A stretch of 64,000 bases of DNA from Ectothiorhodospira sp. BSL-9. GTDB taxonomy: Bacteria > Pseudomonadota > Gammaproteobacteria > Ectothiorhodospirales > Ectothiorhodospiraceae. Below, piece by piece: positions 28,473 to 41,045 of the stretch. The number at the start of each line of letters is the position of its first letter. The stretch's first letter is position 1. Both the position numbers and the translations under genes were made by a program. The notes beneath the pieces are model-generated. The model was not told the DNA's origin. It did not search any database and saw only the letters and a list, made by a program, of their open reading frames with translations. The stretch covers positions 682,001-746,000 of the forward strand of contig NZ_CP011994.1 in the NCBI RefSeq assembly GCF_001632845.1, in the 5' to 3' direction.

Positions 28473-30360
28473 GTCGAGTCGGCCGAGGGAACTGCCCCCT
28501 CGGCCGCTCACAGAACCCGGCGTGAGCCTCTCGACTCACCGGGCTCTTGTTGCTCCAACCACAAACTCGCCGCGGCCGCTCCAGTGAGCAAACAGCGATG
28601 GGGAGCGACGCTTCTGTCGATCCAGCCATGCGTAAGCGCGAGTTTTATGCCCTCGCAGGCGCTTGTATTTCCGCATTGCCCAGCGAACGATCAGGAAGTC
28701 AACGTAGTCGGCCAGGGTCTGGAACTCCGAACCCCGATAGCGGCAGTAGTACCGCATCCATCCACGCAGGCGAGGTGCCGTCCAGTCAGCCAGTGCTTGA
28801 AGATCATGGTGGCTGTACCGGAACACCCCACTGTCACGCAATCGTTGGCGCATCGCTTTCAGGGCCGTCCGGCTCACCGCCGGAGTAAAGCCCGTCTTCA
28901 ACGTGCCATCGCGTAACCTGATCCGCCGCGGCCTGAACGTGTAGCCAAGGAAGTCAAACTGAATAACCGGATACGTTCCCGGTCGCTTGCTGTCCTTGCA
29001 GTAGACCACCCGGGTCTTGTCCGGGTGAAGTTCAAGCCCGCAGCTTTGCAGCCGAGACGACAGATGCTCGCGCATCTGAAGTGCCTCGGCCTCGCTGTGA
29101 CAGTGCAAGATGCCATCATCGGCGTAGCGACAAAACTCGATCTCCGGATGATGCGCGGCCAACCAGTGATCCAGCGCATAGTGCAGGAACAGGTTGGCGA
29201 GCAACGGTGATAGCGGCCCACCCTGCGGTGTGCCGACCGTTCTCTCGATCACTGTTCCATCGGCACGCTGCATCGGCGCGGTCAGCCAACGCTCCACATG
29301 GAGGAGAATCCATCGCTCCTGACAATGATGACGAAGGGCCCGCAGTAGCAGTGCATGATCGATGTTGTCAAACAATCCGCGGATGTCGTACTCCAGCACC
29401 CAGTCACGGCGCCAGCAGCGCTGGCGAGTCACTGCGAGTGCATCATGGGCCGAGCGACTCGGCCGGTACCCATAGGAGTCCGGGTGAAACACCCGCTCCA
29501 GATCGGGTTCCAGGGCCAGGACGACGGCGGTCTGGGCGATCCGATCGCTGACGGTCGGCACACCCAGCATCCGCTCCCCACCGGACTTCTTGGGGATGGG
29601 GACCGCTTTGACCGCAGGCGGGAAATAACTGCCTGAGGACAACCGGTTCCAGATCCGGTAGAGATTGCCATTTCGGTTTTCATCAAACTGCTCGATGGAA
29701 ACCGCATCGACCCCCGCTGCGCCGCGGTTGGCCTTCACGCGGTGATAGGCTTCCCATATCAGCCGCTTTGGAATCACAAACGGTTTTGTCGACATCAAGG
29801 GCTCATCCTCCAGAATCGGAGTTGACCATCGGGTCGACCAGAACAACCCGGCCCCTTCGCTCCGCAGCCATTACAGCCGCTTCATCGCTCATACGGGCCG
29901 GTCCGTCCTCAAGTCGTGCATCGGTACTCAGTGCCTTGCTTTGTGTCACTTGGCAGTCTCCCTTGGCATCACGACTTGAGTTCCCGCAGTTCCGCCGAAG
30001 CGCCCAGATCGAGATCACGCCACTTCTATGCCGGACACCACCCACCCAGTCAGCAGGCTTCCGGTGGATTTGTCCCGAGGGTAAAAGTCGCCCTCGGTTT
30101 TGATGTCGCCTAATCATTTTCGACACGTCAACAGTGATTCGTTTGCACTCGTCTTCTCGATCCATACCTGACACACCACGTGGATGTGCCTTCTCCCCCG
30201 ACGCTCACGACAACGGTCTCCAACCAATGCCGCTCGAGGGTGGTTTGGAGCCGGTCCCTGCAGACAGACTCCGGCGGGTCGGTTCCGCCATCACTTCGGC
30301 AGCTTCTCATGCTGCCCGGTCAGCTCTCACCAACCGAAACCGCATTGCTGCGGCACACAC
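28473..30360 (-). mobile_element. Complete group II intron inside the IS3-type element
   Basis: On the minus strand it starts GTGTGCCGC near 30358-30362 and ends near 28473 (...CGACTCGAC). Domain V lies at 28512-28546 (GAGCCCGGTGAG / CTCACGCCGGGTTCT around a 4-nt loop region). A domain VI stem GGCCGAGGG/CCCTCGGCC follows. The reverse transcriptase is intact, so this intron may be active. The exact ends need RNA evidence. Confidence 0.82.
28536..29795 (-). CDS. ltrA: Group II intron reverse transcriptase/maturase
   Basis: 419 residues. RT motifs: ANRGAAGVDAVSIEQF (RT0/1), PIPKKSGGERMLGVPTVSDRIAQ (RT2), DSYGYRPSRSAHDAL (RT2a), EYDIRGLFDNIDH (RT3), GTPQGGPLSPLLANLFLH (RT4) and the catalytic FCRYADDGI (RT5). 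The maturase X domain ends GWMRYYCRYRGSEF...LRGHKTRAYAWL. No HNH endonuclease domain is seen. The stop codon falls inside domain V. It may also serve the ORF-less intron at 25017, but the two introns look like different classes. Confidence 0.95.
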   Translation of the reverse strand: MSTKPFVIPKRLIWEAYHRVKANRGAAGVDAVSIEQFDENRNGNLYRIWNRLSSGSYFPPAVKAVPIPKKSGGERMLGVPTVSDRIAQTAVVLALEPDLERVFHPDSYGYRPSRSAHDALAVTRQRCWRRDWVLEYDIRGLFDNIDHALLLRALRHHCQERWILLHVERWLTAPMQRADGTVIERTVGTPQGGPLSPLLANLFLHYALDHWLAAHHPEIEFCRYADDGILHCHSEAEALQMREHLSSRLQSCGLELHPDKTRVVYCKDSKRPGTYPVIQFDFLGYTFRPRRIRLRDGTLKTGFTPAVSRTALKAMRQRLRDSGVFRYSHHDLQALADWTAPRLRGWMRYYCRYRGSEFQTLADYVDFLIVRWAMRKYKRLRGHKTRAYAWLDRQKRRSPSLFAHWSGRGEFVVGATRAR

Positions 30361-32085: not shown

Positions 32086-32221
32086 TTTGCTTTCTCCTAT
32101 CAAGTTTTTCGCCGTCGCAGTAGGAACGCCGGTTACCCGACGCCCCCTGCACAGATCCCGGCGTGCGGTTTTCCCGCACCGGGCTCTTCAGTCATACTCA
32201 CTCGCGCAGAAGGGCGTTCCC

Positions 32222-32507
32222 TCACGCAAGCCCCCGATTCCGTATCCCCTGCATCGCCTCAACTGGTGTCGGAAACGCGTAGGCCTCCAGCACCCGCCTG
32301 AGACCTTCCCAGGTCAAACTTCGCCTTTCACTGCGACGGTTCAGCCACTTGTAGAGCAATCGGATTGCCGCAGTGTGAAAACACCACAGTGAACTGATGT
32401 TACCGATGGCACGGAAGTAATTGTAGTGCCCCCGTACCTTGCGTTTCATCGTTGCCAACAGTACCGGCAGACGAAGATACCGGTGTGTTTTCAACCAGTC
32501 CTAGCAG
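32222..32507 (-). pseudogene. Group II intron RT, C-terminal maturase piece
   Basis: The minus strand reads DWLKTHRYLRLPVLLATMKR, then RGHYNYFRAIGN and IRLLYKWLNRRSERRSLTW, the typical maturase X/D end of group II RTs. When joined across the transposon (target GCCCGG) to the piece at 35966, the frame is kept as SGIRAC-stop-DWLKTHRYL; a TAG interrupts it. Confidence 0.85.
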
Positions 32508-32636
32508 GCCCGGTGAGTGTGATCACCCGAATTGATGTCCTCCTGATCACGTTCGTTAAGGGGCCTGATCAGCAAGACGCCGCCGGCGCCCGGGAGGGAG
32601 TTCGGCGGCGTCTTGGGCGTAGGTCTTGGGAGGACG

Positions 32637-32864
32637 TCAGAACGGAGGGTTGTCTGGGTCCTCGGTCGGGAGGGGGACGTCGGACAGTAAGCTGAGCTGG
32701 GTCATATTTTCCTGCGAGCGTTCGTCGTGGTAGCGGTGGATCTGCCCCAGGTAGTGGGATTCGAACAAGATCAGGAAGTCGTGGAGCAGGGCCTGCAACT
32801 CGACGACAGCGTCGTCGCTGAGTTCGGGCCAGGGCAGGGATTGCGGATGGAGGGTTGCGGGCAT
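32637..32864 (-). CDS. 75-residue transposon protein (copy 1)
   Basis: Starts ATG at 32864 with GGAG 8 nt upstream. Acidic-hydrophobic helices (LSDDAVVELQALLHDFLILF, ESHYLGQIHRYHDE) and a Pro/Asp-rich tail. No family recognised; its position after the ATPase suggests an accessory role in transposition. The copy at 40163-40390 has the same amino acid sequence. Confidence 0.75.
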   Translation of the reverse strand: MPATLHPQSLPWPELSDDAVVELQALLHDFLILFESHYLGQIHRYHDERSQENMTQLSLLSDVPLPTEDPDNPPF

Positions 32865-32880
32865 GAGGGTCTCCAGGGGT

Positions 32881-33726
32881 TCAACGGCTTGCGGCGGCAC
32901 GGCGCGGAGTGGGTTTTTCTGCGGGGGCGAACACGTCGAGGTAGAGTTTCTCGTCGAGCTGCGGCAGATCGCGCTGGGCGGCCACGGCGAGCAGTTCGGC
33001 GGCCAGGGTGGTGAGCAGGCGGTAGTTGCCGATGGCGTGGTCACACAGGGTGTGCTGGAGCGTGGGCGTCATCAGGCTGGCGTTGCCGGCGGTGTTGAGC
33101 AGATGCTGCAGGCAAGCCAGGAGTTCCTCGCGGCTGGCCGCTTCGGTGACCAGACGGGTGCGGATGCGGGAGCCGAGCGGGATCAGTTCCTCGCGGCGCA
33201 GCTTCTCGGGCAGGCGGGCATCGCCGGCAAGGATCACGCACAAGAGCGTCTGTGAGTCGAAGCGGGCGCTGGCCATCAGGCGCAGTTCGGACAGGACCGC
33301 GGGACTCATTTCCTGGGCTTCGTCGATCAGGAGCACTGCGCGCCGGCGGGTGGTGTCCAGATGCGCGAACCAGTTCTCGCGCAAGGCCTTGAAGCCGCCC
33401 CAGCGGTTGTGTGGGCGCAGGGGGACGCCGAAGAGATCGCCCATCTCGCGGTAGAAGTCGGCCAACTGGCTCTGCGGATGATGGATGGCGACGACGGTGA
33501 GATCGGGCAGCCGTGCCAGGCGTTCCGCGATCAGGCGCAGAACCACGCTCTTGCCGGTGCCGGGGTCGCCGTTGATCATGGCGAAGCCGCCTTCGCGGAC
33601 CAGGCCCTGTTCGATGCGCCAGTAGAAGTCCTCGACGCGTGCGGGCACATAGAGCGCCTCGACCGGGATTTCGGTGGCGAATGGGTTCCACTTCAGCCCA
33701 TAGAGGGCCAGTAATTTCGAGTTCAT
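32881..33726 (-). CDS. ExeA/TniB/MuB-type AAA ATPase of transposon (copy 1)
   Basis: 281 residues. Walker A GDPGTGKS at about residues 54-61, Walker B VLLIDEAQEM, sensor region VILAGDARLPEKL and an arginine motif (GSRIRTRLV). Such ATPases choose the target and activate a TnsB/Mu-type transposase. The ATG at 33726 overlaps the transposase stop by 4 nt. Confidence 0.92.
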   Translation of the reverse strand: MNSKLLALYGLKWNPFATEIPVEALYVPARVEDFYWRIEQGLVREGGFAMINGDPGTGKSVVLRLIAERLARLPDLTVVAIHHPQSQLADFYREMGDLFGVPLRPHNRWGGFKALRENWFAHLDTTRRRAVLLIDEAQEMSPAVLSELRLMASARFDSQTLLCVILAGDARLPEKLRREELIPLGSRIRTRLVTEAASREELLACLQHLLNTAGNASLMTPTLQHTLCDHAIGNYRLLTTLAAELLAVAAQRDLPQLDEKLYLDVFAPAEKPTPRRAAASR

Positions 33727-35168
33727 GCGGAGTCCTCTTCGGGGTCTGGGGTGGGCAGGTAGGCGGGCGGCAGGCCGGTGGCGGCATAGTCGGCCAGCAA
33801 CTGGCGCAACAGCGGCGCCATCCCCGAGGGTGGCAGTGGCGTGAGCGCGCGTGCCGCAGGTGGCCGGACGCGTCGTTGTGCGTTGGCGTTGGCGGATTTG
33901 TCGAGCGGCAGCACCGGGCACAGGACGGTGCCGGTGCGGGGATCGACCAAGTCGACGCGGGTGCGATCCCACCGCGCGTAGCGCAGCGACACCCGGTCGA
34001 GGTGCTGGTAGCGGGCGGGGATCTCGAAGCGCTGCCCCTCCAGAGACACCGTGCCATCGGAGCGTCGCTGGCGGCGGGTGACCTCAACACGGAAAGCATC
34101 GGCCAGTGCCGCGACCGGCGGGCAGTCCCGGCTGACGTTCGGCCCGGCCAGATAGCGTTTCAGCGGGGTGGTGTCGAGTTCACTGTGGCGGGTGCGGTGA
34201 TACTCCTGCTCGGCCCAAGCCTGCGTGGTCTGGTTGAGCACATCGAGGGTGAGTGGGGTTTGTCCCTCCAGCATCGGCATCAGGCGACCTTCGATACGCC
34301 CCCAAAGGGACTCTTGCTTCCCGTTCTGGTAGGGAGAATACGGTAGCGTCGTCTGGTGCAGCACACCCAGGCGCTGCAATCCGGCAACGGTTTCCTCGGC
34401 GATCATCGCTGCACCGTTGTCCGTCATCAGGGCACGCGGCAACCCGCGCTTCATGAGTGCCTGGGACAGGCCGTGGACGAGGCTCTGCGCCGTCTCGTCC
34501 AGGTACCACTGCAGGTGGCAGATCAAGCGCGAGCGGTCATCCAGGATGCCGAGCAGGTACGGTTTGACCCAGGCGCCCTCTCGGGTCAGTACCTTGCGCG
34601 AACCGTGGTGGAAGTCCAGGTGCCAGAGCGCACAGACATGGTCCAGCTCGTAGCTGCGCACCTCCAGCGCTGCGAATCGGTCGCGGGCGAGGATCGCGCC
34701 GTCGGTTGCACACTTCGGCCGCGCCTGGCGGAACATCCCGTGCGCCTTCAGATAGCGCCGCACCGTGGGATACGAGGGCATGCAGACCTCGCTGTCGGCC
34801 AGGTCCACGCACAGGTTGTCGAAGTGCAACTGCACCGTCCAGCCCGGATGTTCCCGGTATTGCTGCACCAGGGCGGCGATCACGGCCGGCGTCATGGCGG
34901 TGAAGTGGCCATGCGGGCGGCGCTGGTTGCGCAGTGCCGCCACCGGGTCGGGGGCCGACCGTGCCGCGTAATACCAGCGCTCCAGTGTGGACACCCCGAA
35001 GCGCACCTCGGTGCCGGTGACGGGATGGCGCCAGACGCGCTCGGCCAACGCCGCCAGTGCCGCCCGCAATGCTCCCGGTTCCGGCGGTGCGGCGAACAAG
35101 GGACCAATGATCGAGAAGCGCAAGCGCGCCCATCGATCACGCAACAGAGGATCGTTCGGTGGATGCAC
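33723..35168 (-). CDS. TnsB/Mu-type DDE transposase (copy 1)
   Basis: 481 residues from a GTG at 35168 with GGGAG 6 nt upstream. An N-terminal helical DNA-binding region is followed by an rve core with catalytic residues Asp in LWHLDFHHGSRKV, Asp in ALMTDNGAAM and Glu in QNGKQESLWGRIE. The C-terminal beta-barrel segment (GQRFEIPARYQHLDRVSLRY) is as in Mu/TnsB/TniA and IstA-like proteins. Confidence 0.93.
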   Translation of the reverse strand: MHPPNDPLLRDRWARLRFSIIGPLFAAPPEPGALRAALAALAERVWRHPVTGTEVRFGVSTLERWYYAARSAPDPVAALRNQRRPHGHFTAMTPAVIAALVQQYREHPGWTVQLHFDNLCVDLADSEVCMPSYPTVRRYLKAHGMFRQARPKCATDGAILARDRFAALEVRSYELDHVCALWHLDFHHGSRKVLTREGAWVKPYLLGILDDRSRLICHLQWYLDETAQSLVHGLSQALMKRGLPRALMTDNGAAMIAEETVAGLQRLGVLHQTTLPYSPYQNGKQESLWGRIEGRLMPMLEGQTPLTLDVLNQTTQAWAEQEYHRTRHSELDTTPLKRYLAGPNVSRDCPPVAALADAFRVEVTRRQRRSDGTVSLEGQRFEIPARYQHLDRVSLRYARWDRTRVDLVDPRTGTVLCPVLPLDKSANANAQRRVRPPAARALTPLPPSGMAPLLRQLLADYAATGLPPAYLPTPDPEEDSA

Positions 35169-35266
35169 GTTCGTCTCCCAATATGCGCGGTGCCGGCGGC
35201 ACCACGACCGGGAGAGAAGGCTACGCAGCGGGAATCGGTTCGACCATTGGCATCCTCTGCGGGAAC

Positions 35267-35881
35267 TCAGCGCCCCTCGGGCGCCGTGATCGTGAGTGGG
35301 GTGAGCAAGGCCAGCAGGCACCGCAGCGGTTCGTGTTCCTGGCCGGGCAACTGCTCCAGGAGACCGTTCGGCAACCGTGCCGCAGCCACCGGCAGCAGGA
35401 ACCGCGCACCCAGCACCCGCCACAGCGAGGTCCGCACAAAGTCTTCGCGCCACCACCGCCGCCACCGTGCCAGGGTGCGCCAGGGAATCGATAACGCTTC
35501 ACACAACGCAGCCGCCGCCGTGCCGTGCCCGGCCGGCCGGGTTGACCCCAGCACCACCACCCAGCTCAGCCATACGCGCCGCCCCAGAAAACGCACCGAC
35601 TGGCTGGTCGTCCGACGTCGGCACTGGCTGCAGCAGAAACTCAGCCGCGTCGCGTATTCAGCGCGGAACGCAGGCGGGCAGCCGCGCGGCTTGCGTGGAT
35701 AGTTGGCGCGGTGTAGCACGCCGCCACACGGGCACCCGGCCGCCTGCGCCTCGGCCGCCAATGCCTCATCGATGTGGATTAGAAACCGGAAAAACTGGGG
35801 ATCGGACAACGGAACATGGCACACTGTGAGTGTCTCTTGGCTTGGTAACCAGAGACTCCCCCAAAGGGCGCGTTCGTTCAA
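35267..35881 (-). CDS. Zinc-ribbon protein of transposon (copy 1)
   Basis: 204 residues from a TTG at 35881; a GTG 57 nt further in is also possible. Cys pairs CPCGG (about residues 38-42) and FCCSQCRRRTT look like a zinc ribbon, followed by SVRFLGRRVWLSWVVVL and a helical C-terminus. From memory it resembles proteins labelled DUF6431; this needs a search. It is the first gene of the four-gene transposon unit. The upstream G-run has 5 G here and 6 in copy 2. Confidence 0.78.
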   Translation of the reverse strand: MNERALWGSLWLPSQETLTVCHVPLSDPQFFRFLIHIDEALAAEAQAAGCPCGGVLHRANYPRKPRGCPPAFRAEYATRLSFCCSQCRRRTTSQSVRFLGRRVWLSWVVVLGSTRPAGHGTAAAALCEALSIPWRTLARWRRWWREDFVRTSLWRVLGARFLLPVAAARLPNGLLEQLPGQEHEPLRCLLALLTPLTITAPEGR

Positions 35882-35965
35882 GCTCCCCGAGGGGGATCCC
35901 CCTCAAACCTCACCCTGCGTGATCATTCCACCCGCAAACACCCTCAGTAAGGGTGATCGTACTCA

Positions 35966-37060
35966 GCCCGGATGCCACTGCGCAGCTTCTTGCGGCTGGT
36001 CCGCCGCCATACACGCGGCGTCCCCTTGCTATCCGCTTCCCAGTAAAATTCAAAACCAAGGAAGGTGAATCGCCGGGTCCGCGTCGGGTGAAAACGGCTG
36101 AAGCGGTGAATGCACGTTTTCTCCGAGGCAGCCTGGAGACCAAAGGCCTCCAGTCGCCTCGGCAAGGCTCGGTAGAACCGCCGTGCATCCGCCCGGTACT
36201 GGAAAGCACACACGAAATCATCCGCAAAGCGGATGATGTACGCCTGTCCGGCACAGCTCGGCTTGATCCGCTTCTCAAACCACACATCCAGCACATCGTG
36301 CAGATAGATGTTCGCCAGTATCGGCGAGATCACACCGCCCTGTGGGGTTCCCGTGTGCGGATGGAGTACCGATCCATCTCGCTCCAGGATTCCGGCCTTC
36401 AGCCAGCTGGCAATGAGACCAACGAATGGTTTATCGTCAATCCGTTCCGCCAGCATCCGTAGCAGCCAGTCATGGTCAATATTGTCGAAGAAGCCTTTAA
36501 TGTCGGCTTCGACAACATAACCGTGGCGTCCAAACTGCAGCTCATAGGTGAGATCCTTGGCCGCCTGCTGTGCACCCCGCTTCGGCCGGTAGCCGTAGCT
36601 GGTGGGGAGAAAATCCATTTCGTAGATAGCCCCAGCAGCAGGCGTGCTGCCGCCTGAAGCAGTCGGTCTTCCACCACCGGAATTCCCAGCGGTCGTTCCT
36701 TGCCGTTTCCCTTCGGAATGTACCGGCGCCGGATCAACCGGCTTCGATACTCGTTACGTTTCAGGCGTTCTACCAGTTGTCTGATGTTTTCACTCAGGTT
36801 CCTGCCATATTCGGCCATGGTCACCTTGTCCACGCCCGGGGCTCCCCTTTAATTCAGGGTGCGCCAGGCATGGTGCAGTAGTGATTCATTCAAAAGGCCA
36901 TAAAGGTTCTGGAATCGGTGGGCTTTCGCAGTGCCCGCCTTGATGGATATCGCCCGCAGGAAGGTTGGCTCGTCGTTCTCCGGCCCGACAGTGTCCGGCG
37001 CGAGTGGCCTTTGCGGACTGTGTATGACTGTCACCCCCTTCCCCATGTGATCGGCTCTAC
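35966..37060 (-). pseudogene. Group II intron RT, central and N-terminal pieces
   Basis: The 1095-bp spacer between the two transposons. On the minus strand: KAHRFQNLYGLLNESLLHHA-WRTLN then TAA, RGAPGVDKVTMAEYGRNLSE, IPKGNGKERPLGIPVVEDRL, a 1-nt frameshift near 36630, TSYGYRPKRGAQQAAKDLTY, DIKGFFDNIDHDWL, GTPQGGVISPILANIYLH and RFADDFVCAF. Thus it is a clear RT with one nonsense codon, one frameshift, another nonsense at the 32507 junction and two insertions. Confidence 0.9.
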
Positions 37061-37145
37061 TGAGTACGATCACCCTTACTGAGGGTGTTTGCGGGTGGAA
37101 TGATCACGCAGGGTGAGGTTTGAGGGGGGATCCCCCTCGGGGAGC

Positions 37146-37760
37146 TTGAACGAACGCGCCCTTTGGGGGAGTCTCTGGTTACCAAGCCAAGAGACACTCA
37201 CAGTGTGCCATGTTCCGTTGTCCGATCCCCAGTTTTTCCGGTTTCTAATCCACATCGATGAGGCATTGGCGGCCGAGGCGCAGGCGGCCGGGTGCCCGTG
37301 TGGCGGCGTGCTACACCGCGCCAACTATCCACGCAAGCCGCGCGGCTGCCCGCCTGCGTTCCGCGCTGAATACGCGACGCGGCTGAGTTTCTGCTGCAGC
37401 CAGTGCCGACGTCGGACGACCAGCCAGTCGGTGCGTTTTCTGGGGCGGCGCGTATGGCTGAGCTGGGTGGTGGTGCTGGGGTCAACCCGGCCGGCCGGGC
37501 ACGGCACGGCGGCGGCTGCGTTGTGTGAAGCGTTATCGATTCCCTGGCGCACCCTGGCACGGTGGCGGCGGTGGTGGCGCGAAGACTTTGTGCGGACCTC
37601 GCTGTGGCGGGTGCTGGGTGCGCGGTTCCTGCTGCCGGTGGCTGCGGCACGGTTGCCGAACGGTCTCCTGGAGCAGTTGCCCGGCCAGGAACACGAACCG
37701 CTGCGGTGCCTGCTGGCCTTGCTCACCCCACTCACGATCACGGCGCCCGAGGGGCGCTGA
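37146..37760 (+). CDS. Zinc-ribbon protein of transposon (copy 2)
   Basis: 204 residues, same sequence as the copy-1 protein from the TTG at 37146. Cys pairs CPCGG and FCCSQC suggest a zinc ribbon. In this copy the extra G upstream extends the open frame to 37113, which supports a start at or after 37146. Role unknown; candidates are DNA binding at the ends or target recognition. Confidence 0.78.
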   Translation: MNERALWGSLWLPSQETLTVCHVPLSDPQFFRFLIHIDEALAAEAQAAGCPCGGVLHRANYPRKPRGCPPAFRAEYATRLSFCCSQCRRRTTSQSVRFLGRRVWLSWVVVLGSTRPAGHGTAAAALCEALSIPWRTLARWRRWWREDFVRTSLWRVLGARFLLPVAAARLPNGLLEQLPGQEHEPLRCLLALLTPLTITAPEGR

Positions 37761-37858
37761 GTTCCCGCAGAGGATGCCAATGGTCGAACCGATTCCCGCT
37801 GCGTAGCCTTCTCTCCCGGTCGTGGTGCCGCCGGCACCGCGCATATTGGGAGACGAAC

Positions 37859-39304
37859 GTGCATCCACCGAACGATCCTCTGTTGCGTGATCGATGGGCG
37901 CGCTTGCGCTTCTCGATCATTGGTCCCTTGTTCGCCGCACCGCCGGAACCGGGAGCATTGCGGGCGGCACTGGCGGCGTTGGCCGAGCGCGTCTGGCGCC
38001 ATCCCGTCACCGGCACCGAGGTGCGCTTCGGGGTGTCCACACTGGAGCGCTGGTATTACGCGGCACGGTCGGCCCCCGACCCGGTGGCGGCACTGCGCAA
38101 CCAGCGCCGCCCGCATGGCCACTTCACCGCCATGACGCCGGCCGTGATCGCCGCCCTGGTGCAGCAATACCGGGAACATCCGGGCTGGACGGTGCAGTTG
38201 CACTTCGACAACCTGTGCGTGGACCTGGCCGACAGCGAGGTCTGCATGCCCTCGTATCCCACGGTGCGGCGCTATCTGAAGGCGCACGGGATGTTCCGCC
38301 AGGCGCGGCCGAAGTGTGCAACCGACGGCGCGATCCTCGCCCGCGACCGATTCGCAGCGCTGGAGGTGCGCAGCTACGAGCTGGACCATGTCTGTGCGCT
38401 CTGGCACCTGGACTTCCACCACGGTTCGCGCAAGGTACTGACCCGAGAGGGCGCCTGGGTCAAACCGTACCTGCTCGGCATCCTGGATGACCGCTCGCGC
38501 TTGATCTGCCACCTGCAGTGGTACCTGGACGAGACGGCGCAGAGCCTCGTCCACGGCCTGTCCCAGGCACTCATGAAGCGCGGGTTGCCGCGTGCCCTGA
38601 TGACGGACAACGGTGCAGCGATGATCGCCGAGGAAACCGTTGCCGGATTGCAGCGCCTGGGTGTGCTGCACCAGACGACGCTACCGTATTCTCCCTACCA
38701 GAACGGGAAGCAAGAGTCCCTTTGGGGGCGTATCGAAGGTCGCCTGATGCCGATGCTGGAGGGACAAACCCCACTCACCCTCGATGTGCTCAACCAGACC
38801 ACGCAGGCTTGGGCCGAGCAGGAGTATCACCGCACCCGCCACAGTGAACTCGACACCACCCCGCTGAAACGCTATCTGGCCGGGCCGAACGTCAGCCGGG
38901 ACTGCCCGCCGGTCGCGGCACTGGCCGATGCTTTCCGTGTTGAGGTCACCCGCCGCCAGCGACGCTCCGATGGCACGGTGTCTCTGGAGGGGCAGCGCTT
39001 CGAGATCCCCGCCCGCTACCAGCACCTCGACCGGGTGTCGCTGCGCTACGCGCGGTGGGATCGCACCCGCGTCGACTTGGTCGATCCCCGCACCGGCACC
39101 GTCCTGTGCCCGGTGCTGCCGCTCGACAAATCCGCCAACGCCAACGCACAACGACGCGTCCGGCCACCTGCGGCACGCGCGCTCACGCCACTGCCACCCT
39201 CGGGGATGGCGCCGCTGTTGCGCCAGTTGCTGGCCGACTATGCCGCCACCGGCCTGCCGCCCGCCTACCTGCCCACCCCAGACCCCGAAGAGGACTCCGC
39301 ATGA
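37859..39304 (+). CDS. TnsB/Mu-type DDE transposase (copy 2)
   Basis: 481 residues, GTG start at 37859 after TTGGGAGACGAAC. The catalytic Asp, Asp and Glu described for copy 1 are present. Both copies are intact, so the element may still be mobile. The stop overlaps the ATPase start. Confidence 0.93.
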   Translation: MHPPNDPLLRDRWARLRFSIIGPLFAAPPEPGALRAALAALAERVWRHPVTGTEVRFGVSTLERWYYAARSAPDPVAALRNQRRPHGHFTAMTPAVIAALVQQYREHPGWTVQLHFDNLCVDLADSEVCMPSYPTVRRYLKAHGMFRQARPKCATDGAILARDRFAALEVRSYELDHVCALWHLDFHHGSRKVLTREGAWVKPYLLGILDDRSRLICHLQWYLDETAQSLVHGLSQALMKRGLPRALMTDNGAAMIAEETVAGLQRLGVLHQTTLPYSPYQNGKQESLWGRIEGRLMPMLEGQTPLTLDVLNQTTQAWAEQEYHRTRHSELDTTPLKRYLAGPNVSRDCPPVAALADAFRVEVTRRQRRSDGTVSLEGQRFEIPARYQHLDRVSLRYARWDRTRVDLVDPRTGTVLCPVLPLDKSANANAQRRVRPPAARALTPLPPSGMAPLLRQLLADYAATGLPPAYLPTPDPEEDSA

Positions 39305-40146
39305 ACTCGAAATTACTGGCCCTCTATGGGCTGAAGTGGAACCCATTCGCCACCGAAATCCCGGTCGAGGCGCTCTATGTGCCCGCACGCGTCGAGGACT
39401 TCTACTGGCGCATCGAACAGGGCCTGGTCCGCGAAGGCGGCTTCGCCATGATCAACGGCGACCCCGGCACCGGCAAGAGCGTGGTTCTGCGCCTGATCGC
39501 GGAACGCCTGGCACGGCTGCCCGATCTCACCGTCGTCGCCATCCATCATCCGCAGAGCCAGTTGGCCGACTTCTACCGCGAGATGGGCGATCTCTTCGGC
39601 GTCCCCCTGCGCCCACACAACCGCTGGGGCGGCTTCAAGGCCTTGCGCGAGAACTGGTTCGCGCATCTGGACACCACCCGCCGGCGCGCAGTGCTCCTGA
39701 TCGACGAAGCCCAGGAAATGAGTCCCGCGGTCCTGTCCGAACTGCGCCTGATGGCCAGCGCCCGCTTCGACTCACAGACGCTCTTGTGCGTGATCCTTGC
39801 CGGCGATGCCCGCCTGCCCGAGAAGCTGCGCCGCGAGGAACTGATCCCGCTCGGCTCCCGCATCCGCACCCGTCTGGTCACCGAAGCGGCCAGCCGCGAG
39901 GAACTCCTGGCTTGCCTGCAGCATCTGCTCAACACCGCCGGCAACGCCAGCCTGATGACGCCCACGCTCCAGCACACCCTGTGTGACCACGCCATCGGCA
40001 ACTACCGCCTGCTCACCACCCTGGCCGCCGAACTGCTCGCCGTGGCCGCCCAGCGCGATCTGCCGCAGCTCGACGAGAAACTCTACCTCGACGTGTTCGC
40101 CCCCGCAGAAAAACCCACTCCGCGCCGTGCCGCCGCAAGCCGTTGA
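39301..40146 (+). CDS. ExeA/TniB/MuB-type AAA ATPase of transposon (copy 2)
   Basis: 281 residues, same sequence as copy 1. Opening MNSKLLALYGLKWNPFATEI is the usual ExeA/TniB-like start, with Walker A GDPGTGKS and Walker B LLIDEAQE. It is translationally coupled to the transposase by an ATGA overlap. Confidence 0.92.
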   Translation: MNSKLLALYGLKWNPFATEIPVEALYVPARVEDFYWRIEQGLVREGGFAMINGDPGTGKSVVLRLIAERLARLPDLTVVAIHHPQSQLADFYREMGDLFGVPLRPHNRWGGFKALRENWFAHLDTTRRRAVLLIDEAQEMSPAVLSELRLMASARFDSQTLLCVILAGDARLPEKLRREELIPLGSRIRTRLVTEAASREELLACLQHLLNTAGNASLMTPTLQHTLCDHAIGNYRLLTTLAAELLAVAAQRDLPQLDEKLYLDVFAPAEKPTPRRAAASR

Positions 40147-40162
40147 ACCCCTGGAGACCCTC

Positions 40163-40390
40163 ATGCCCGCAACCCTCCATCCGCAATCCCTGCCCTGGCC
40201 CGAACTCAGCGACGACGCTGTCGTCGAGTTGCAGGCCCTGCTCCACGACTTCCTGATCTTGTTCGAATCCCACTACCTGGGGCAGATCCACCGCTACCAC
40301 GACGAACGCTCGCAGGAAAATATGACCCAGCTCAGCTTACTGTCCGACGTCCCCCTCCCGACCGAGGACCCAGACAACCCTCCGTTCTGA
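40163..40390 (+). CDS. 75-residue transposon protein (copy 2)
   Basis: Same sequence as 32637-32864. ATG at 40163 with CTGGAGACCCTC upstream, 16 nt after the ATPase stop. It is followed by a strong hairpin (GACGCCGCCG / CGGCGGCGTC, about 40418-40453) that probably ends the transposon transcript. Confidence 0.75.
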   Translation: MPATLHPQSLPWPELSDDAVVELQALLHDFLILFESHYLGQIHRYHDERSQENMTQLSLLSDVPLPTEDPDNPPF

Positions 40391-40519
40391 CGTCCTCCCA
40401 AGACCTACGCCCAAGACGCCGCCGAACTCCCTCCCGGGCGCCGGCGGCGTCTTGCTGATCAGGCCCCTTAACGAACGTGATCAGGAGGACATCAATTCGG
40501 GTGATCACACTCACTCTAC

Positions 40520-41045
40520 CGTCTCGGAGTACTATGAGGTGATCCGACTCCCCTGTGGCCGTCAGGTCACGTTCCCTTTCTCGGGGTCCGCTTTCCTTAC
40601 CTGGACCGGGCCTTTCAGGCTCCCCCTGACTCCGGCCTAGCCCTGTATCCAGATTTCTCCTTCGTGCCTCAATAGCCATATGTCATGGTTTCCCAACGGT
40701 GTTCCGGTTCAGGAGCCACAAGGGCCTCCCGCGTTCACGACGCATCTCTCGTCACATACCGTAGCTTGAGAACTCCGCCGGCTCTCTCCAGGCTCACCAA
40801 TGCGCCCGGTTCGTTTAGGCTTCACGCGCGTTACAACGCTGCCAATCCGGAACGGCTTTTCGAAGCGATTCCAGCTCAAAGGGGCTGCGTCCCCATCCGG
40901 TCTATGACGTACCCTGTGTACGCTTCACCTCTCTTGTTCGCGTGTAGCCTCAGTTCTCACCGAAGCCACCGCTCCGCCAGAGGCGCAACACTCGGTAATG
41001 GTGGGTGGTTAACCCTTTCCATGCCAGGACTTACACCCGGCCAGA
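40520..41045 (-). other. 5' ribozyme part of the decayed group II intron
   Basis: About 530 nt without an independent gene. The minus strand carries the structured 5' half of the intron and a leader frame (LIVLRDGR, joined across copy 2 to ADHMGKGVTVIH) that enters the RT. A perfect GCGCCGCGC-AAA-GCGCGGCGC hairpin lies at 41046-41066, next to the attC. Confidence 0.6.

Follow-up and report, generated by a model that had tools for sequence, protein, structure and literature searches.

A Tn6049-type transposon in Ectothiorhodospira whose small fourth protein carries an SSB-like C-terminal tail

Tn6049 is a published transposon whose transposition module "could not be categorized" (2018), and Tn6049-related transposons of Acidithiobacillus are mentioned in a 2012 paper (PMC3414803). 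In Tn7, a clamp-binding motif of the protein TnsE steers insertion to replication forks (PMC5371812). We analysed a stretch of 64,000 nucleotides of Ectothiorhodospira sp. BSL-9 (NZ_CP011994.1, positions 682,001 to 746,000; hereafter the window), which holds two copies of an element with four co-directional genes, encoding a zinc-ribbon/helix-turn-helix protein, a DDE transposase, a MuB-like AAA+ ATPase and a small tailed protein (Table 1). The element almost certainly adds a member to the Tn6049 type, itself already known. A preliminary description, made from the letters of the window, had seen in it no standard family; this gives way to the extent that Tn6049 is in print with the same gene content, and holds to the extent that its module was called uncategorized in 2018. 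What is new here is the fourth protein, which by its sequence is conserved, under selection and tailed like the single-stranded DNA-binding protein (SSB). Our best explanation of the whole, to which we assign a probability of roughly 0.6, is a Tn6049-group transposon whose fourth protein acts as a replisome adaptor; the adaptor role, taken by itself, is put forward tentatively.

The same gene set recurs widely. A scan of bacterial genomes returned 222 matching stretches, and among the best 80, in which gene order was inspected, a zinc-ribbon gene is followed by those for the transposase, the ATPase and the small protein in nearly all (where the contig was long enough and intact), in line with the four-gene set described earlier. 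A plasmid collection identified Tn6049 itself as the relative carried by Cupriavidus metallidurans and by pHS87a of P. aeruginosa. Relatives with both flanks available have homologous ends starting TGAG. The gene order is shared by a broader range of elements whose first gene matches Pfam DUF6431.

The fourth protein and its tail

The fourth protein has no family match and no relative among solved structures. Its layout is a core, then a linker of variable length, then the C-terminal end, and across 33 aligned rows D17, Y38 and R44 are invariant and P74 and F75 nearly so. The ratio of nonsynonymous to synonymous differences per site (pN/pS) is 0.14-0.45 in four pairs, and the gene is, as far as such sequence comparison tells, under purifying selection. 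A subgroup of relatives (L035, L042, L045-L047, L052) has a small protein with an extra N-terminal CPxC..C, possibly a zinc knuckle.

The tail was evaluated on the open reading frame following the ATPase gene in each relative and in the distant elements, a sample of 75 distinct proteins in 48 clusters at 70% identity. A terminal Phe is found in 41 of the 48 clusters, against 3.0 expected from the composition of the tails, a Pro-Phe terminus in 34, and an acidic residue at positions -6 to -3 in 40; by column, acidity reaches 67% at -4 and 60% at -5, and only 10-15% at -8 to -10. The usual terminus thus reads acidic-x-Pro-Phe-COOH, and the SSB of the host ends in SDFDDDIPF. Comparable tails occur in distant elements of Pandoraea and Paraburkholderia (both IDDPF), C. 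necator N-1 (LDLPF) and A. caldus (HPPF), in two further elements of the BSL-9 genome (L103, FDDEQDPF; L104, GDEPPF) and in Tn6049 (ADNDF). A second pattern, Q.[SD]L[FLW], resembles the binding motif of the beta clamp and is present in nine clusters, against 0.33 in shuffled sequences (0 of 2000 shuffles as high); it reads QLSLL in the window and QPDLF, QSDLF or QASLF elsewhere. Both kinds of sequence, the SSB tip and the clamp motif, serve in the cell to recruit proteins of replication and repair. Open-access literature searches, one of them flooded by unrelated matches, returned no transposon with an SSB-like tail, and the searchable papers on Tn6049-type elements make no remark on the conserved small protein.

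With odds that we place slightly short of even, we propose that Tn6049-group and related DUF6431 transposons encode an adaptor whose mimicry of the SSB tip, and in certain lineages of a beta-clamp ligand, couples an AAA+/DDE transposon to the replisome. Insertion is staggered and produces the duplications of 4-7 bp. To judge by the protein families, the transposase would bind the ends, through terminal sequences and subterminal TGATCA repeats, and join them to target DNA; the ATPase would select and activate the target in the way of MuB and TnsC, while the zinc-ribbon protein might aid end or target recognition, or regulation. The fourth protein would hold on to the transposition machinery of the element with its core. 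Its acidic-x-Pro-Phe tail would imitate the SSB tip, and a second motif, in some lineages, ligands of the beta clamp, allowing the protein to dock on readers of the SSB tail (such as PriA, chi/HolC, RecG and RecQ) or on the clamp. Such docking could steer insertion to replicating DNA, as TnsE does for forks, or, once strands have been transferred, it could bring in enzymes for restart and gap filling. The recruitment of restart proteins is plausible because the strand-transfer products should need host replication or repair, given that the element encodes neither a TnsA-like nuclease nor a resolvase.

Several points weigh against this proposal. The tail is not universal, being absent from L113 (RGPDLG), L125 (QPDLWD), the second element of L032 and Metabacillus, and the clamp-like motif is confined to a minority of clusters. 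The clusters are related by descent, so that the counts do not represent independent events, and both patterns were first spotted and then tested on one and the same set. Likeness to a tail or a clamp motif is, furthermore, not binding, and the tail could instead dock on the element's own ATPase or transposase, in the manner of the TnsB-type C-terminal hook, with a convergent likeness to SSB. We consider this alternative rather unlikely, although the small gene does accompany the ATPase gene, often overlapping it, and the tails of transposition proteins commonly bind the partner ATPase (TnsB/TnsC, MuA/MuB). The combination of terminal Phe, penultimate Pro, acidic run and variable linker fits the host SSB tip, the tail remains alike in elements whose ATPases are down to about 22-26% identity, and the transposase has a better hook candidate of its own in a conserved C-terminal stretch, AATGxPPAYLP.

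Transposase, ATPase and first protein

The three catalytic residues of the transposase (Table 1) are invariant in the family, with the spacing D,D(35)E. A family profile scored 22.8 bits against IstA, 20.5 against the A protein of phage D3112, 4.2 against MuA, 0.5 against TniA and −0.9 against TnsB, the last two amounting to no detectable similarity. The IS481 model NF033577 of NCBIfam gave 118 bits, below its cut-off of 224. In the tree, which has long branches, the transposase falls within a Tn6049 clade (support 99/99), apart from another clade (99/99) that unites the transposases of Mu, D3112, Tn7, Tn402 and recombinase-linked elements; the position of the IS3 row, a long branch read across a frameshift, was disregarded. 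Phage records contained no close transposase, and a structure prediction of low confidence (mean predicted local distance difference test score, pLDDT, 64.6) carries no claim here.

For the ATPase, the family profile scored 30 bits against MuB, −0.5 against TnsC and 0.1 against TniB, and IstB, which pairs with IstA in IS21, was not recovered by it; when distant ATPases were included, a search of solved structures ranked MuB first (E 8e-15) and ShTnsC second (1.9e-11). Based on these sequence comparisons, the transposase is placed outside the Mu/Tn7/Tn402 clade and the ATPase is MuB-like first and ShTnsC-like second. The preliminary description had called the transposase TnsB/Mu-type, and a likeness to TnsB is contradicted both by the profiles and by the phylogeny it proposed; the ATPase that it described is confirmed, as one of the AAA+ class, and the TniB type is not supported. 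An element of Tn7/Tn5053 type, with a TnsB/TniA transposase and a TniB ATPase, would account for a DDE integrase core paired with an AAA+ partner and for the match to ShTnsC. It is nevertheless highly improbable in view of the profile scores and the tree, the lack of any TnsA or TniQ/TnsD gene in the 3.45-kb element, and duplications of 4-7 bp, mostly 5-6, in place of the 5-bp mark of Tn7 and Tn5053.

The first protein is a C2-C2 zinc-ribbon and helix-turn-helix protein whose start we infer to be GTG 37203 from the relatives, all of which begin (M)CH. In the window it has no match reaching DUF6431, and common descent with the DUF6431 first genes is suggested by gene order, cysteines and helix-turn-helix only. 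Its structure model is of low confidence (mean pLDDT 66.9) and a fold search with it returned nothing significant, so that it too carries no claim here.

A side observation concerns the ATPase gene. In Cupriavidus necator UYPR2.512, five Tn6049 copies (L080, L081, L083, L086, L087) have this gene split by a RIT-like insert of 3.5 kb that encodes three tyrosine recombinases. We rejected the idea that an intron splits the gene, since Rfam finds none and the insert encodes the recombinases. Each of these copies is a unit of 7013 bp, with a site and a 4-bp duplication that differ from copy to copy, and they seem to have moved with the ATPase gene split, perhaps with help in trans from an intact copy such as L084.

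Insertions, target duplications and group II introns

Table 1. Coordinates of the element and its surroundings (positions in the window; aa, amino acids)
Feature	Position	Strand	Details
Copy 1 of element	32514..35965	-	3452 bp, genes on minus strand
Copy 2 of element	37061..40513	+	3453 bp, genes on plus strand
Gene 1, copy 2	37203..37760	+	C2-C2 zinc-ribbon + helix-turn-helix, about 185 aa; start inferred
Gene 1, copy 1	35267-35824	-	counterpart
Gene 2, copy 2	37859..39304	+	481-aa DDE transposase (D185, D250, E286)
Gene 2, copy 1	33723-35168	-	counterpart
Gene 3, copy 2	39301..40146	+	281-aa AAA+ ATPase, MuB/TnsC-like; ATGA overlap with gene 2
Gene 3, copy 1	32881-33726	-	counterpart
Gene 4, copy 2	40163..40390	+	75 aa, conserved core and C-terminal SSB-like tail
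Gene 4, copy 1	32637-32864	-	counterpart
QLSLL codons, gene 4	40328..40342	+	beta-clamp-binding-motif-like
C-terminal tail codons, gene 4	40361..40387	+	TEDPDNPPF-COOH, SSB-tip-like
Terminal inverted repeat upstream of genes, copy 2	37061..37075	+	TGAGTACGATCACCC
Terminal inverted repeat downstream of genes, copy 2	40499..40513	-	TGAGTGTGATCACCC
Target duplication, left of copy 1	32508..32513	.	GCCCGG
Target duplication, right of copy 1	35966..35971	.	GCCCGG
Target duplication, left of copy 2	37055..37060	.	CTCTAC
Target duplication, right of copy 2	40514..40519	.	CTCTAC
Target group II intron	32114..41033	-	5' domains 40763-41033, domains 5-6 32114-32188

The placement of the two copies, their termini and their perfect duplications agree with the preliminary description. 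The copies lie in opposite orientation, 1.1 kb apart, and aligned in gene orientation they differ by a single indel, in a run of G near 37124 that belongs to the leader preceding the likely start of gene 1. All four proteins are therefore identical between the copies, as had been claimed, provided that gene 1 starts at the GTG inferred above. The inverted ends are imperfect, matching at 13 of 15 positions. TGATCA recurs 7, 31 and 53 bp from the tip of the downstream end, with an additional one at 37101 in the upstream end, and these subterminal repeats are likely binding sites of the transposase.

An origin of the pair in one event, as a composite transposon or by intramolecular replicative inversion, would fit copies that are inverted, near-identical and closely spaced. 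Each copy, however, is flanked by its own matched duplication, which excludes a single intramolecular inversion, and both copies have flanks that belong to a single group II intron with its parts in their proper order; we thus regard a common event as having next to no probability, and the separate insertions described earlier stand. Copy 1 splits the reverse-transcriptase frame of the intron, a frame that in-frame stops near 36853 and 32501 interrupt as well. Just left of the region, another group II intron, of a different class (RF01999), has its domains D1-D4 on the minus strand at 30166-30289.

A whole-genome search of the chromosome found five complete copies, one split copy (L006/L007; 2,758,619-2,761,900 and 2,755,873-2,756,052) and one end remnant of 127 bp at 92% identity. 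The split is due to an insert within the first gene, of IS66 type as judged by eye from its three open reading frames. This genome thus holds six insertions of one element. The duplications are of 6 bp in four copies (GCCCGG, CTCTAC, TTCTCC, CCTTAC) and of 5 bp in two (GTAGG, GTCCG). At the TTCTCC copy, congeneric genomes have an uninterrupted GGDEF-type gene (94% and 87% identity), and since the empty site of the 94%-identical one has only a single TTCTCC, insertion with target duplication is shown for this copy. Duplications are likewise present at the flanks of relatives, where they span 4-7 bp; overall, most are of 5-6 bp, and the 6-bp length noted in the preliminary description is no mark of the class.

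Group II introns contain or adjoin three of the six insertions, the third being a copy (L004, C1:987331-990783) that stops roughly twelve bases short, on the 5' side, of domain 5 (990,796) of another such intron. Among 14 relatives with mapped ends, the joined flanks of eight (L032, L035, L042, L060, L062, L063, L068, L084) are transposase genes: one each of IS110, IS4, IS5 and Tn3, two of IS630 and two IS481-like, the last two belonging to related elements. Insertions in other mobile elements may reflect the survival of harmless insertions rather than target choice.

The BSL-9 genome carries two more element types with the same gene order (L103 and L104-L107), the L104 type in four copies with ends TGTTACGTCCC and duplications of 4-5 bp.

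Comparison with known systems

With this analysis, the previously uncategorized Tn6049-type elements are placed as having a DDE transposase outside Mu/Tn7/Tn402, an ATPase resembling MuB and a small conserved protein, the fourth gene being the part of the element that deserves attention. If true, mimicry of the SSB tail would give a transposon a simple route to the capture of replication proteins, and the terminal Phe, a single residue, makes the idea testable.

Tn6049 (pMOL30, pHS87a) matches the window element in its four genes, which encode a zinc-ribbon protein, a DDE transposase, a gspA-like ATPase and a small ORF product, in their order and in a length of about 3.5 kb, with about 62% identity in the transposase and about 50% in the first protein. 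Its ends, TGTGCATAAGCA/TGTGCGTGAGCA against TGAGTACGATCA/TGAGTGTGATCA in the window, are comparable in layout and differ in sequence; the same is true of the Tn6049-type terminal repeat TGTGC.T.AGCA, and the ends of relatives vary. Its duplications are of 4-6 bp, and its small protein has 90 residues against 75, with the tail ADNDF against DNPPF.

IS481 elements are single-gene, and share an integrase core with the window transposase. The IS481/DUF6431-type elements of Pandoraea, Paraburkholderia PGU19, C. necator N-1, Geobacillus pGS18 and the BSL-9 genome itself (L103 and L104) have the order of zinc-ribbon, DDE and AAA ATPase genes, joined in proteobacteria by one for a small protein with a tail, but their transposases are only about 28-35% identical and their first protein is mostly of DUF6431, which that of the window is not. 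Phage Mu provides in MuB the closest relative of the ATPase, whereas MuA is only faintly similar to the transposase profile. Finally, TnsE of Tn7 is a precedent for a clamp-binding motif in a transposon protein, and differs from the fourth protein in having no sequence similarity to it and no SSB-like tail.

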